Assembly: GCA_020853095.1 (NCBI GenBank)
Contig: JADYZN010000067.1
Coordinates: 1-55,341, forward strand
Length of the DNA stretch: 55,341 nucleotides
DNA from: Phycisphaerales bacterium
GTDB lineage: Bacteria > Planctomycetota > Phycisphaerae > Tepidisphaerales > Tepidisphaeraceae
Direction: 5' to 3'
Positions 5,608 to 29,444 of the stretch are shown here, in pieces; the first letter of the stretch is position 1, and each line of letters begins with the position of its first letter. The notes under the pieces were generated by a model. The model was not told the origin of the DNA and did not search any database. It saw nothing but the letters and a program-made list of their open reading frames with translations. A program made the position numbers and the translations under genes.

Positions 5608-8052
5608 TTGCCGTGGTTGTTTTGCGGGATATTGGCCACATCGTGCGCATTAACGTGGGGGCAGCCTCGGCGGACGGTGAATGCCAGTTTTCCTTTTTCA
5701 CAGTTTTATCCGCCGGGCGAATGGTTGCCGGTGCGGATTGATTTATTGAATGAGACCGGCCAGGAGACGGCCGGGTATGTGGAGTTGCCGATTCATGCCA
5801 AGGGTGGGATGGTTCGGGTGCGCAGTGAGAGTTGGGTTCCGGCGAACAGTCGGGTGACGGACATTGTGTATGCGTATTTTCCGGCCGAGATTTATCAGAC
5901 GGCGCAGCAGGAAAAGACGGGGTTGTCGCCGCCGGTGACGGTGGTGCAGTGGTATGGCGAGTCGGGTGGGGAGATCAGCCGGGTGGAGATGTTGGCGCGG
6001 CCGCTGGGGGCGACGAGGGATCAGAAGGGGAACTGGGTGGAGGGAGCATCCTCCGGGCCGGCGAGGTTGTTGTTGCTGGTGAATCCGACGGGAAGCGGGG
6101 ACAAGCTGGTGCAGAAGGTGTCGGAGATCATCACCTTGCGCGAGCAGTTGAGTGGGGTGGTCGGATATGCGTTGGGGTCGCCCACGGTGGATGTGGCGGA
6201 GATGCCCCGGCAGGGGGTGGGGTATTCGGCGTGTCAGGCGGTGGTGATTGACCAGGCATCGGCCGACGAGATGGATGAGGCGCAGCGGCAGTCGTTGTTG
6301 GATTACATTCGTGGCGGCGGGGTGGTGGTGGTGTCGGCGCCGATGGGGGAATACGAACAGAGCCGGACGTGGTTGGGGTCGTGGTTGCCGGTGAAGATCG
6401 TGGGCAGGCGGGAGACTTCGGCGCTGGAGGTGGTGGGTGAAAAGCCGCTGGCGTTGATCGAGCCATCGCAGGTGAGCGAGGCGATTGAAGGTCAGGGGGA
6501 GGTGTTACTTCGGGGGCCGCATTACGTTCACGCGGCCTATCGTTCGATCGGGATGGGGAGGCTGGTGTTCGTGAGTTTTCCGGTCAGCGCGTTGTCGCCG
6601 GATGATGAGCGGTCGATGAAGCTCTGGTCGGATCTGCTGAACATGAACGTTCAGGGGGTGGACTGGCGGCAGAGCGCGCTGGGGGCGCAACAGACGCAGT
6701 TTATCGAGCGGATGGTGGGCAAGTCGGTTCCTCCGTGGAAGCTGGCGGCGATCGTGGTGGGGGCGTATCTGCTGGTCGTGCTGGGGGTGCAGGGAGTTTG
6801 GGGCGGGACGAGGCGGCCGAAGGCGTTCGCGGTGGTGGTGATCGTGGCGGTGGCGGGTTCGGCGGGGCTGGTGGTTTACAAGGCGGCGGCGTCGCGGCAT
6901 GACCGGCTGAACGCGGCGGCGATCGGGACGATGGACATGGGGCCGGGGGGTGGCGGGGTGCAGCAGCGGACGATCGCGTACATCGGGCAGAACACGAACC
7001 TGGAATTGAAAGGGGCCAATACGGATGTGAGCATTCGGCCGGCGGTGTCGGGGGATGTGATGTTGAAGATGCCGCCGTTTGACGTGCCCGAAGCGACGGT
7101 GTTCGCGGACAAGATCGAGCAGGTGTGGCAGGTTCGCGGGCCGATACCGGCCGATTTGAGCGTATCGGCGACGGGGCGGTTCGGGCCGGATGGACTGGAG
7201 TTGACGGTTGAGAACGGGTTGAAGCATCCGTTGCGGTCGCCGGTGCTGGTCTGGGGTGATCGGGCGTTCGGGCTGGGGGATGTCGAAGGGGAGCGGTCGA
7301 CGTTGACGGCGACGACGCCCAACGCGCCGGGGGATTACACCAACGCGACGATATTCACATCGGACCTGGCGAAATTGCGCGGGGCAATGCTGGCGGCGTC
7401 TTTGCGGCCGGCGACAATGACGTTCGGCCAGCAGAGCAAGCGAAAGCCGATCCTGGCATGCTGGCTGGAGGAAGCGCCCGACTTGTTGCAATCGCCCGAA
7501 GGGATTCCGGGCAAAGTCAACACGCTGGTGCGGGTGGAAGCGGAGCTGGAGCCGACGGCGGTGGGGACGGGGGTGCGGATTCCGGCGGGGTTCATGGAGA
7601 TGCAGCGGTCGGAGGCGGCGGGGCTGCCGTACGATTTCATTAAAAACGAGTGGATCACCAGCCGGACGCCGGGGTCGTGGTTGTTGCGGTTCGTGCCGCC
7701 GGCGGGGATCGGGAAATTGCAGATCGACTCGGCGACGCTGTCGATCAGTATTGATGCGCCGCAGTACGTGGTGAAAATACAGCGGGTCGGCCGTCGGGAG
7801 GGAAAGCCGGTGTTGAATCCGGCGGGTGAGACGATCGCGCAATGGAACCAGCCGGTGGGACAGCAGACGCCGGTGACGTTCGCGTGCGGGCCGACCGACG
7901 TGGATGAGCAGGGTGGGGTGTGGATCCAGTTTACGATTGAAGAATCGGGCGGAGCGGGATTGGCGCAGGGGGCGACCGGCTGGCTGATGAAGCAGATCGG
8001 GATGGGGGTGGAGGGGAAGGTGGTGGGGAATTTGGGGAATGGGGAGCGGTGA
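5608..8052 (+). CDS. Large membrane protein of unknown function, upstream of ABC transporter
   Basis: About 814 residues. The N-terminus is a signal-peptide-like segment (LFCGILATSCALTWG) followed by an exported beta-rich region (about 20-150). A Rossmann/GATase-like segment (about 180-260; note LDYIRGGGVVVVSAP) follows, then two membrane helices near 378-397 and 408-426 and a long second exported part with Ig-like strands. No catalytic motif was recognised. It precedes the ABC ATPase and permease genes, so it may be an accessory subunit. A TTG at 5608 is used here, but AAGGAG at 5570-5575 is placed for an in-frame ATT at 5584, which adds a positively charged FRRIH stretch and a better signal peptide (see findings). 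Coding strand unusually G-rich. Confidence 0.75.
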   Translation: MPWLFCGILATSCALTWGQPRRTVNASFPFSQFYPPGEWLPVRIDLLNETGQETAGYVELPIHAKGGMVRVRSESWVPANSRVTDIVYAYFPAEIYQTAQQEKTGLSPPVTVVQWYGESGGEISRVEMLARPLGATRDQKGNWVEGASSGPARLLLLVNPTGSGDKLVQKVSEIITLREQLSGVVGYALGSPTVDVAEMPRQGVGYSACQAVVIDQASADEMDEAQRQSLLDYIRGGGVVVVSAPMGEYEQSRTWLGSWLPVKIVGRRETSALEVVGEKPLALIEPSQVSEAIEGQGEVLLRGPHYVHAAYRSIGMGRLVFVSFPVSALSPDDERSMKLWSDLLNMNVQGVDWRQSALGAQQTQFIERMVGKSVPPWKLAAIVVGAYLLVVLGVQGVWGGTRRPKAFAVVVIVAVAGSAGLVVYKAAASRHDRLNAAAIGTMDMGPGGGGVQQRTIAYIGQNTNLELKGANTDVSIRPAVSGDVMLKMPPFDVPEATVFADKIEQVWQVRGPIPADLSVSATGRFGPDGLELTVENGLKHPLRSPVLVWGDRAFGLGDVEGERSTLTATTPNAPGDYTNATIFTSDLAKLRGAMLAASLRPATMTFGQQSKRKPILACWLEEAPDLLQSPEGIPGKVNTLVRVEAELEPTAVGTGVRIPAGFMEMQRSEAAGLPYDFIKNEWITSRTPGSWLLRFVPPAGIGKLQIDSATLSISIDAPQYVVKIQRVGRREGKPVLNPAGETIAQWNQPVGQQTPVTFACGPTDVDEQGGVWIQFTIEESGGAGLAQGATGWLMKQIGMGVEGKVVGNLGNGER

Positions 8053-25724: not shown

Positions 25725-26672
25725 ATGAATCGCGAACGTTGCGGCCGCTGCGGGTGTGACCTGGGCGCCGGCCGCGAGGGTGTATTTTATTGTGAAAACT
25801 GCCTGCGCACCTCGCGCAACGCGGGACACGCCGGCATGTGGTGGGCAACCATCGTCGCGTTGATCCTGATGGTGGGCGGCGGGGTGGCGATGGCCATCAT
25901 GGCGCCCAAGCTCATTATCAGCAGCGACTTACGGCTGTTGATCGGGCTGGGATTGACGCTGGTTCCCGCCTTGTTCTGGCTGATCATCTTCTATAGTGCC
26001 GACCGGCTGGAACCGGAACCCAAGGGTTACGTCTTTGGGTTGTTCATCCTTGGCATCCTTTTGGGCGGGGCGATTCAACAGCCGGTGCAGCGGGATATTT
26101 ACGAGCTTCAGCGCTGGCTGCTGCCGAGCATCGCCGGCGGCAAACTGATTCCGCTGGTGGGTGCGTTTTTGCTCAAGGGAATCGTCACCGCGGCGTTGAC
26201 GTACTTTGCCGTCCGGTTCACCGTCATGCCGACGTCCGAGTTTGACGAGCGGGTGGATGGGATCATTTATGGAACGGCGGCGGCGCTGGGGCTGGGCGTG
26301 GCCGCCAACCTGGCGTATCTCAACGAACATGGCACCATCTCGCTGGGGGTGGGGGCGTTGCAGATCATCATCACCAGCTTGGCGTATGCATCGTTCGGCG
26401 CGATCATGGGCTACTTCATCGGCCTGATCAAACCGGGCGGGGGGCCGTCGGTCCTGGCGCCGTTCGGCGTGATTGTGACCGCGATCATCCAGGGCCTGTA
26501 CGAATGGATGGTCATGCAGATGGGTTCCAACAATTTGAATTACAATCCGTGGCCTTCGCTCATCGCGACGGCGGTTTTCGCGGCCGTGGCCTATGCGATC
26601 GTCTTCATGCTGGTCGCCAGTGCCTACCGTGCCATGGTCGTCAACCCCGCAGGAAAGGAGTCGCTGGCATGA
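25725..26672 (+). CDS. PrsW-family-like membrane protein with zinc ribbon and lost protease residues
   Basis: 315 residues. A zinc ribbon (Cys6, Cys9, Cys23, Cys26) is followed by eight or so membrane helices. The PrsW-like core is recognised by DRLEPEPKG (93-101), SEFDERVDGIIYGTAAALGLG (171-191 in two blocks) and GAIMGYFIG (225-233). The three active-site motifs of PrsW (E-E-x-x-K, a Glu in the next helix, and a His) are replaced here by Leu150-Lys151, Ala194 and Tyr221. It is therefore probably not an active protease. Shine-Dalgarno TAGGAGG precedes the ATG. It overlaps the next gene by ATGA; the three-gene operon ends in a trypsin-like protease. Confidence 0.85.
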   Translation: MNRERCGRCGCDLGAGREGVFYCENCLRTSRNAGHAGMWWATIVALILMVGGGVAMAIMAPKLIISSDLRLLIGLGLTLVPALFWLIIFYSADRLEPEPKGYVFGLFILGILLGGAIQQPVQRDIYELQRWLLPSIAGGKLIPLVGAFLLKGIVTAALTYFAVRFTVMPTSEFDERVDGIIYGTAAALGLGVAANLAYLNEHGTISLGVGALQIIITSLAYASFGAIMGYFIGLIKPGGGPSVLAPFGVIVTAIIQGLYEWMVMQMGSNNLNYNPWPSLIATAVFAAVAYAIVFMLVASAYRAMVVNPAGKESLA

Positions 26673-27301
26673 GCGCCGCCAACACCGGAGTTTCCCTTTC
26701 GTTTTCCGAACAGCCGATCCCGGTTCGCCGATCGGCCGACCTGCTGGTTCTGATCATTCTCATCGCCGCCCTGGCCATTGGCTGGTGGTTGCGCGGAGAG
26801 GTTCTCAACGCCACCGACCTGGCCACGGTCGCGGAGGCCGGCGTGCAGTTGCAGGTTCCCAAGCGTTCGATCGCGCTGCCCAACAGCCGCGATTTGTGGG
26901 CGGTTGAAACCCCATCCGGCCTGCGGGTCCGCATCAACGAAATGCCCATGCCGACGCTCAAGGAAGGACAGGCCGACCCCGGCAAAACCCCGCTGCTGCT
27001 GGTCACCGACCGGGCGTTGGAAGAGGCGCGAACCGTGGACATGTTCCGCAGCGTTTCCACCGCGGTTCAAAACGTCGCCGGCGTCGCCACGGGCATTCAG
27101 GAATATCTGTACGTCGATCAGAACGCCGCGAAATTCTATTCCTCCCCCTTGCGCGTGATGCATGGATATGAAGCGCTCGTCCCGCAGGGCGACCGCGTCA
27201 TCATCGTCAGCCTTGAAGGGCCGGATGCCAAGTGGGACCAGGTGAAGGAATTCTGGCCGCGGCTGCTGAACAGTCTTAAGTTCTCTGAGGTGAAAAAATG
27301 A
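26669..27301 (+). CDS. Single-pass membrane protein of unknown function in PrsW-like operon
   Basis: 210 residues from the ATG at 26669 (overlapping the previous stop as ATGA). A membrane helix lies near 25-44 (LLVLIILIAALAIGWWL) after a short cytoplasmic part; the rest, about 165 residues, is probably outside. The outer part alternates strands and helices (LPNSRDLWAVETPSGLRV, then EEARTVDMFRSVSTAVQ) and ends with LNSLKFSEVKK. No enzyme motif recognised. Coupled on both sides by ATGA overlaps, so it should be made in step with the PrsW-like protein and the serine protease; a scaffold or substrate-adaptor role is conceivable. Confidence 0.75.
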   Translation: MSAANTGVSLSFSEQPIPVRRSADLLVLIILIAALAIGWWLRGEVLNATDLATVAEAGVQLQVPKRSIALPNSRDLWAVETPSGLRVRINEMPMPTLKEGQADPGKTPLLLVTDRALEEARTVDMFRSVSTAVQNVAGVATGIQEYLYVDQNAAKFYSSPLRVMHGYEALVPQGDRVIIVSLEGPDAKWDQVKEFWPRLLNSLKFSEVKK

Positions 27302-28923
27302 AAATGCTTCGCCATTCATGGAAAACCTGGACCCTTGTCGCCCTGCTGATGATGGGCGTTGGTCTGGGCGGCGTCGTCCGATACGTCTATGCGATGCCGG
27401 ATCAAAGCAAGCTCACCGAGCTGCTGCCGGCCAGCGTCTACATCATCTCGGTGGATGACAACGGCAAGCCGCTGGCGCGCGGGTCGGGTTCGGTCATCGA
27501 CAAAAACGGCCTGATCCTGACCAACTTTCACGTTGTCGCCAACGACGACATGACCGCTTTGACCAATGAGAAGGGGATCTGCGCCGTTCTCATCACGCGC
27601 GACCCCCGCCGGTCGGCCGTGCCCACGTATCTGGGCAAGGTCATTCGTTATGATAGCAAGGTGGACTTGGCCCTCGTGCAGGTGATCGCCGACATCAAGG
27701 GCAACCGGCTGACCAGCGCCCCGTCGCTGCCGACGATGACCGTCGGCGATTCCGACAAGCTCAGCCCGGGCGACAACCTGACCATCATCGGGTATCCCGG
27801 TCTGGGCCAGGACAGCATCACCGTCACCACCGGGCGAGTCAGCGGATATTTGTCCGAAAAGAACGGCCCGGTTGAGCTGATCAAGACCGACGCCGAGATC
27901 AATCCGGGCAACTCCGGCGGATCGGCCGTCAACGACGCCGGCGAATTGATCGGCGTGCCGACCTACACGCTCGAAGGCAAGGAACGGATCGGCAAAATCG
28001 GTTTGGTCCGGCCGATCAATCTGGCGATTCCTCTTATGAAGAACGTCAGCGGGCAGACGCCCGATGATCGTCCCCGCCGCCCATCCAAACCCAAGGACAA
28101 AGACAACAAAGGCCGCAAATCGGGCCAGACCCTCAGTTTCACCGGCTTTGCGCTTTCAGAGGAAGCCAGTGAAATGGTCAAGGAGGCCCCCAGCGGCATC
28201 CAGGCTTTGTATGGCATCGTCGAATATTCGGGCATGACCCAGCAGACGCCGTGCAAATATCTGTGGAAGCTGGATGGCGAGGTCATCCCCAACACCGAAA
28301 ACGAAAGTGATACATGGCCCTTTGATCCCGGTCAGGGCGCCGCGATGTTGTACATCTCAACGCAGGATCAGTTGCCTGATGGGACGTACACGCTGGAAAT
28401 GCAGGCCGGCAAGCAGCAGCTCAGCGCCGACATCACCGTCGGCAGCGAAGGAGGCCCGAAGCGAAAGTCGCCGCCCAAAAATGATCAGAACAATCAGGAT
28501 GATCAGGGGATGGACCAGGGCGATCAGGACAATGGAGGCCAGGAAGAAGCCGCGCCGCCGCCACCAAGGAAGAAGACTCCGCGTCAATCGCCCAGCGCCA
28601 AGTCGGTGAAACTCCGTGGAACGGTAGTCTCGGCCGACACCGGCGAACCGATCGAAGGCGCGGCCGTCATTATTCTGGCCCCGGGCATCACCTGGAAATC
28701 CGCCGACTTGAACAACCGCGAACACGTTTTTGACGTGGCCCGCAGCGATGCGGATGGCGTCTTTGAAACCAATCGCGGCTTGAGCATGAATGGCGATTAC
28801 AGCATTGGATTTGCCGCGCAAGGCTACCAGGCCAACGGCGGCGACCACTTCAAGCCCCAGAAGTATTATCAAGGCGGCAACTTCATCGACCTTGGACAGG
28901 TCGGCCTGAAATCCGCCGAATGA
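27298..28923 (+). CDS. Trypsin-like serine protease with C-terminal carboxypeptidase-regulatory-like domain
   Basis: 541 residues. An N-terminal signal anchor (WTLVALLMMGVGLGGVVRYV) is followed by a HtrA-like protease domain: His78 in LTNFHVV, Asp123 in DSKVDLALV, Ser206 in NPGNSGGSAV. No PDZ is evident; instead a linker of acidic and Gln/Asp-rich residues (about 380-430) leads to a CarboxypepD_reg-like domain (LRGTVVSADTGEPIEGAAV, about 443-461) and a C-terminal beta module. Predicted periplasmic and cell-envelope-associated. Third gene of the ATGA-linked operon, after two membrane proteins. An oxyanion loop is intact, so it is likely active. Confidence 0.9.
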   Translation: MKMLRHSWKTWTLVALLMMGVGLGGVVRYVYAMPDQSKLTELLPASVYIISVDDNGKPLARGSGSVIDKNGLILTNFHVVANDDMTALTNEKGICAVLITRDPRRSAVPTYLGKVIRYDSKVDLALVQVIADIKGNRLTSAPSLPTMTVGDSDKLSPGDNLTIIGYPGLGQDSITVTTGRVSGYLSEKNGPVELIKTDAEINPGNSGGSAVNDAGELIGVPTYTLEGKERIGKIGLVRPINLAIPLMKNVSGQTPDDRPRRPSKPKDKDNKGRKSGQTLSFTGFALSEEASEMVKEAPSGIQALYGIVEYSGMTQQTPCKYLWKLDGEVIPNTENESDTWPFDPGQGAAMLYISTQDQLPDGTYTLEMQAGKQQLSADITVGSEGGPKRKSPPKNDQNNQDDQGMDQGDQDNGGQEEAAPPPPRKKTPRQSPSAKSVKLRGTVVSADTGEPIEGAAVIILAPGITWKSADLNNREHVFDVARSDADGVFETNRGLSMNGDYSIGFAAQGYQANGGDHFKPQKYYQGGNFIDLGQVGLKSAE

Positions 28924-28994: not shown

Positions 28995-29444
28995 TCAATC
29001 CTCCACGCCGGATTGCGCCGGCGTCGATGCCGGCCGGGTGGATGGATATATCCTCCATAAATCCAACGTCAGCACCTGCCGGGTGGGAATGGTGAAATCC
29101 TGCTGCGCGAAGGATTGTCCATCGCGGATCAGGCTCAGCGTATAATTGCCCGCCGCCACGTGAAACCGCAGGATGTACTTTTCCTTTGGATCAAACGTTG
29201 CCCGAACCGGCTGGGCCAAACCCACCCCGCTGACCTGCGCCACCACCCCTTCCAGGGCGTCGCTGCCGTTGAGGATGATCAGTGAAGAAGGCTCGCGGTC
29301 GATGATCCAGCGATAGCAGAGGATCGACACCGCCAGGATGAACAGCACCGCCGTCAGCATCAACGCGGTACTGACCCATATGCTGCGCGCCGGCCGGTTT
29401 GCATTCGGATTCGGCGTCATTCCCCCATCGGTTCCGGTGCTCAT
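28995..29444 (-). CDS. Small membrane-anchored protein
   Basis: 149 residues. After about 20 polar residues a membrane helix (ALMLTAVLFILAVSILCY, about 27-44) leads to a C-terminal exported beta-rich domain (SSLIILNGSDALEGVVAQVSG, then KEKYILRFHVAAGNYTLSLI) that looks like a small PEGA-like domain. No catalytic motif. The ATG has GGGGAG 6 bases upstream. It lies 22 bases after ettA in the same direction, and ends before the shared terminator. Confidence 0.75.
   Translation of the reverse strand: MSTGTDGGMTPNPNANRPARSIWVSTALMLTAVLFILAVSILCYRWIIDREPSSLIILNGSDALEGVVAQVSGVGLAQPVRATFDPKEKYILRFHVAAGNYTLSLIRDGQSFAQQDFTIPTRQVLTLDLWRIYPSTRPASTPAQSGVED

Follow-up and report, generated by a model that had tools for sequence, protein, structure and literature searches.

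A PrsW-family protein that has lost its catalytic residues is encoded with a PsbP-fold protein and an exchangeable exported peptidase

The window analysed here, a 55,341-nucleotide contig of a Phycisphaerales bacterium, carries three overlapping genes for a PrsW-like protein, a membrane protein and a serine protease. The first-pass annotation had read the first product as an intramembrane protease that died and became a sensor or scaffold. This raises the question of whether the protein is indeed inactive and, if so, what role it plays beside a secreted peptidase. The features of the locus are as follows:

25725–26672, + strand: pseudo-PrsW gene (315 residues), an N-terminal zinc ribbon followed by a PrsW-fold membrane domain without catalytic residues
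26669–26672, + strand: ATGA start/stop overlap of genes 1 and 2
26669–27301, + strand: gene for a membrane-anchored PsbP/Mog1-fold protein (210 residues counted from the ATG at 26669), helix 21–46 and PsbP-like domain
27298–27301, + strand: ATGA start/stop overlap of genes 2 and 3
27298–28923, + strand: gene for an exported trypsin/HtrA-like serine protease without PDZ (541 residues)
28606–28920, + strand: module-specific CarboxypepD_reg-like C-terminal domain (profile A6), common to the M4-thermolysin partners of Chloroflexota

The ATG of gene 1 is preceded by AGGAGG, and both ATGA joints, as described earlier, were read directly in the sequence. The trio is flanked on one side by a pfkB-type sugar kinase gene and on the other, past a small convergent frame, by a gene for an ABC-F-like ATPase; this gene order is also kept in L008, a Phycisphaerales MAG and the sole other genome of the genus. 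No anti-sigma gene was seen next to the trio by Pfam annotation and a survey of its neighbours. The convergent frame just 3′ of the trio (28995–29444, − strand) encodes a 149-residue one-helix protein that has no Pfam match and is conserved in L008.

Protein 1 matched the Pfam PrsW family (PF13367) with an E-value of 1.2e-10 and 41.7 bits, above the gathering cut-off of 23.5, and scored 67.6 bits against the NCBIfam equivalog for active PrsW, far under its cut-off of 225. We compared its catalytic columns by profile alignment with intact PrsWs and Bacillus subtilis PrsW, whose numbering is used for the Glu and His residues. In motif 1, E75, E76 and K79 are replaced by T155, A156 and T159; E114 of motif F110xxxE114 is occupied by A194 and H138 by Y221, whereas H175 and D179 of motif H175xxxD/N179 correspond to Q256 and E260. 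None of the catalytic Glu and His columns of motifs 1–4 retains a Glu or His, and the only two histidines of the protein, at positions 35 and 202, fall outside the PrsW motifs. The residue numbers of the B. subtilis sequence in this alignment match those in PMC12943098, where the E75A/E76A and H175A substitutions in the YpdC/PrsW motifs are reported to be functionally important; these motifs are also described elsewhere (PMC4602095).

The first-pass annotation had placed motif 1 at a Leu-Lys pair. That position lies about five residues too early and is ruled out by the gap-free alignment with an intact homologue (FTEEIFKYIAMRF / IVTAALTYFAVRF), which puts Thr155-Ala156 at the Glu-Glu column; the dead-enzyme conclusion stands. 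The same annotation had correctly assigned Ala194 and Tyr221 to motifs 2 and 3 and recognised the N-terminal zinc ribbon, which is formed by Cys6, Cys9, Cys23 and Cys26. The catalytic loss it claimed is real, and extends to the motif-1 lysine and the motif-4 histidine, which it had not listed. That protein 1 is a catalytically dead PrsW is well supported by this sequence comparison. A second PrsW-like protein in the window's own genome (L004 1387–2412, contig C7) is partly degenerate: the Glu-Glu pair is kept, but Gln replaces the Glu of motif 2 and Asp replaces the His of TM5.

Protein 1 belongs to a wider family. In profile searches, full-length relatives turned up in about 24 of the 400 genomes searched from L009's phylum, Chloroflexota as judged from its being an Ardenticatenales MAG, and in 5 of the 141 from L012's phylum (Polyangia, hence Myxococcota). 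The 198 genomes of L010's phylum (Saprospiraceae, hence Bacteroidota) yielded no relative of the degenerate PrsW. Among 392 genomes of its own phylum, the degenerate family was confined to the window's genus. Intact matches in other Planctomycetota, which retain the catalytic residues, and the two Bacteroidota matches inspected proved to be ordinary PrsWs and not members of this family. The degenerate proteins form one clade relative to ten intact PrsWs (support 100/99). Because the window clade groups in the tree with two Chloroflexota sequences, the module was likely transferred into the planctomycete genus.

The members of this clade differ in how much they have lost. The deepest (L113, L114, L116 and L117) keep Q-E-x-x-K and the TM5 His and have lost E75, E114 and H175; the other members lost more, and the window clade lost nearly all catalytic residues. 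In these deep branches some residual activity may persist. No family member keeps E75 together with E76, or H175 together with H138, and the profile search found no intact homologue inside the family; intact PrsWs are common outside it. The zinc ribbon is missing in several relatives, for example L085 and L092.

We found that purifying selection acts on the pseudo-PrsW gene. When the genus's two genomes are compared, its dN/dS is 0.046, compared with 0.045 for the adjacent ABC-F gene. The window protein is 59% identical overall to its relative in L009 (Chloroflexota), with identity rising to 97% in residues 162–199, which surround the former active site, and lying at 45–56% in stretches outside the core. 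A dN/dS this low, with conservation highest in the region of the former active site, rules out a decaying pseudogene.

For the membrane domain we relied on a structural model of L085, in which pseudo-PrsW and the PsbP-like protein are fused. The membrane part was modelled with pLDDT of about 80–97 for most of its length and the PsbP part with low confidence. The best structural match of the membrane part of this relative, as distinct from the window protein, was APH-1 of gamma-secretase (5a63_C, Z 14.6, 208 residues), followed by the multipass-translocon chain 7tm3_6 (Z 14.1), scores of about 14 being close to what helical bundles may attain by chance. Based on PMC7505659, 7tm3_6 is taken to be TMEM147. 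After this chain and further APH-1 chains the next rows of the list drop to Z 8.3, and Staphylococcus aureus SpdC (6u0o_A) appears at Z 6.5. This gap, together with the assignment of APH-1 to the PrsW superfamily (PMC4602095), makes the two leading matches credible, and the model credibly adopts the seven-helix fold of the PrsW/CPBP superfamily. Searching PDB sequences with profile A5 returned no APH-1 chain, Foldseek with the full L085 fusion model gave no match at E < 0.001, a viral structure search gave no matches, and MmRce1 was not among the matches in the VIA list.

The hydrophobic segment of the second protein is composed of a single helix (residues 21–46), which is followed by a PsbP-like domain. 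Its AlphaFold model (pLDDT 80) matched PsbP in Foldseek with an E-value of 1e-7 and probability 1.00, and the L077 relative gave a weak Pfam PsbP match (0.004). The PsbP-like gene comes after pseudo-PrsW or is fused to it in all 30 surveyed copies, three of these assignments being weak matches (L113, 1.6e-5; L119, 1.4e-4; L114, 0.008). Pseudo-PrsW and the PsbP-like gene are fused in three genomes (L085, L112 and L119), and the PsbP-like and protease genes in one (L114). The mixed alignment A7 was excluded from modelling, as its PsbP-like rows fell under the membrane domain. Fusion and linkage also fit a common pathway without stable contact.

Protein 3 is composed of a signal segment (about residues 12–32), a trypsin-like domain with the triad H78, D123 and S206 kept, an Ig-like region (about 281–385) and a CarboxypepD_reg-like domain (about 437–541). 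The corresponding Pfam matches are Trypsin_2 (1.7e-26) and CarboxypepD_reg (1.1e-8), and the Pfam search identified no PDZ domain; the earlier description of an intact protease that has a CarboxypepD_reg-like domain instead of PDZ therefore holds. The domain match to DegP_HtrA_DO is 2.9e-27, with a score of 95.7 against a cut-off of 416.

The peptidase of this module is exchangeable and its C-terminal domain is constant. A trypsin-like partner, usually encoded downstream, accompanies the module in the window genus, Myxococcota and some Chloroflexota. An M4 thermolysin encoded upstream, with HExxH intact in every case, takes its place in 14 Chloroflexota loci, and thermolysin is the partner in about half of the surveyed copies. 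Both the S1 and M4 partners terminate in the same CarboxypepD_reg-like domain, and the module peptidases seen bear export signals or lipoboxes. Profile A6 for this domain was built from module members, a choice that biases it towards a private distribution; it found the domain in 9 of 9 module-bearing genomes and in 0 of 20 Chloroflexota genomes lacking the module (Fisher p 1e-7). In eight of the nine it matched within the module only, the G443 copy lying on a contig end that apparently continues the module contig; the ninth, G507, has a single match, in a gene on a different contig. In L076 only a fragmentary frame occupies the place of the tail-bearing peptidase.

Several loci depart from this arrangement. 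The trypsin-like partners of two Myxococcota copies have lost their triads: H>T, D>N and S>C in L111 (6912–8537), and H>D and D>N in L112 (6998–8845). Neither the intramembrane nor the secreted protease appears active in these two loci, so here at least the module probably functions independently of trypsin-type cleavage. In L085 a gene flanked by two pseudo-PrsW genes (6163–7032, − strand) encodes a CarboxypepD_reg-like domain and an Ig-like region without a protease domain. Five related Chloroflexota genomes (L077, L082, L083, L088 and L089) have a gene for a Rex-like redox repressor upstream of their M4-type module, an arrangement that we judged to be local synteny and not a recurrent regulator; response-regulator-like frames occur near the module in four loci.

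The catalytic loss, the degenerate homologues, purifying selection and the linkage and fusion with peptidase partners give good support to the idea that a dead intramembrane protease became a scaffold. We consider it more likely than not that the dead PrsW and the PsbP-fold protein constitute a membrane platform for an exported peptidase recognised by its private tail. The PrsW membrane fold would act as the scaffold, and together with the single-helix PsbP-fold protein would make up this platform; the platform would recognise the peptidase via the module-specific CarboxypepD_reg-like C-terminal domain and hold, mature or position it. The cytosolic zinc ribbon, absent from some relatives, may serve as an accessory contact. 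That the parts bind one another, that the peptidase is recognised by way of its C-terminal domain, and that the function is tethering, maturation or regulation are inferences.

The main rival to this scaffold is an export or assembly factor, in which pseudo-PrsW would be a conduit or an insertase-like chaperone and the peptidase would act elsewhere. TMEM147 functions in a translocon, and the L085 membrane part matches a multipass-translocon chain. The PrsW domain has been proposed as a conduit in PrsW-dependent export of polymorphic toxins (PMC3482391), and the export signals and lipoboxes of the peptidases would suit such a role. However, the ordinary Sec-type N-termini of the partners require no dedicated conduit and the conserved PsbP-like ectodomain points to a lasting extracytoplasmic role, and we regard this alternative as unlikely. 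The signalling relay favoured by the first-pass annotation, in which the dead protease and its ribbon would sense a cytosolic or membrane signal, activate the protease and start regulated proteolysis, found no specific support and appears improbable. PrsW proper takes part in RsiW proteolysis (PMC4602095), iRhom1 passes a cytosolic signal to ADAM17 (PMC13277793) and a cytosolic-type zinc ribbon would permit cytosolic input; yet no sigma, anti-sigma or kinase gene recurs beside the module in the surveyed loci, L085 and L092 are among the relatives without a ribbon, the frequent thermolysin partner is unlike a site-1 relay, and the protease lacks its triad in two Myxococcota copies.

It is very improbable that pseudo-PrsW still cuts, through other residues or residual activity. 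Its retained fold, the strong conservation of the former active-site region and the Q-E-x-x-K and single His of the deep members would fit such an enzyme, whereas the catalytic columns of the window protein are occupied by Thr-Ala, Ala, Tyr and Gln, none of its PrsW motifs contains a His, and no member combines E75 with E76 or H175 with H138. Chance neighbours without common function on a recently transferred island are scarcely credible. The module was found among planctomycete samples only in the window genus and its nearest relatives are in Chloroflexota, so transfer is probable; but the identical linkage in three phyla, the four gene fusions and the persistence of the private domain even where its gene is unlinked argue against chance, and the conservation found already contradicts it. 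The conservation of the trio in another phylum likewise marks it as more than coincidence.

A more specific version of the scaffold reading would make the module a bacterial counterpart of APH-1/nicastrin or TMEM147/nicalin/NOMO, a three-part complex with a dead PrsW core and an exchangeable ectodomain peptidase; we put this forward tentatively, as a possibility that is more doubtful than the scaffold itself. If true, it would be an independent example of an intramembrane protease becoming a scaffold. The APH-1-type change, from a dead CAAX/PrsW-superfamily protease to an essential scaffold, has been seen chiefly in completed eukaryotic complexes, and this family offers a readable series of loss, from Q-E-x-x-K and one His to none, beside a constant partner set. 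Within it the peptidase is exchanged and the docking-type tail retained. The family also provides a compact, testable system in which to study how pseudoproteases evolve. Among the proteins annotated as PrsW in Chloroflexota, in Myxococcota and in this planctomycete are some that are unlikely to be PrsW-type enzymes. Dead scaffolds of the PrsW superfamily and zinc-ribbon-PrsW fusions (PMC3482391) were already known; the PrsW/PsbP/peptidase module is apparently new, as we did not find it described in the literature searched.

Protein 1 shares a homologous fold and the landmarks DxxEPEP, FDExxDGxxYG and LG...N with B. subtilis PrsW (YpdC), a glutamic-type intramembrane protease, but differs from it in lacking the catalytic motif residues, in scoring under the equivalog cut-off and in having no anti-sigma neighbour seen. 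Protein 3 shares the trypsin-like His-Asp-Ser domain of the HtrA/DegP family without the C-terminal PDZ, and the gene 2 protein has the fold of the PsbP/Mog1 superfamily. The repurposed HtrA-like proteases MamO and MamE (PMC4794232) are comparable with L111 and L112 as trypsin-like proteins retained for another role, although their context is the magnetosome and the window protease appears intact. In S. aureus, SpdC (LyrA) is a CAAX-protease-family membrane protein that scaffolds the extracellular hydrolase SagB (PMC10581084, PMC12272431); SagB is, however, a glucosaminidase, the portions of these accounts drawn on here describe no PsbP-like protein or CarboxypepD_reg domain, and the fold score is middling. 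APH-1/nicastrin and TMEM147/nicalin/NOMO provide the best fold matches for the L085 membrane part, and in these complexes a multi-helix core binds a partner that has one helix and a large ectodomain (PMC7505659). They are eukaryotic, the likeness of the partners is one of arrangement, and no presenilin or Sec61 role is implied for the window module. In iRhom-ADAM17, a dead relative of an intramembrane protease controls an active ectodomain protease (PMC6451368, PMC13277793). iRhom belongs to the Rhomboid family and not to PrsW; the parallel drawn earlier is apt as an analogy, and APH-1, TMEM147 and SpdC are closer in fold.
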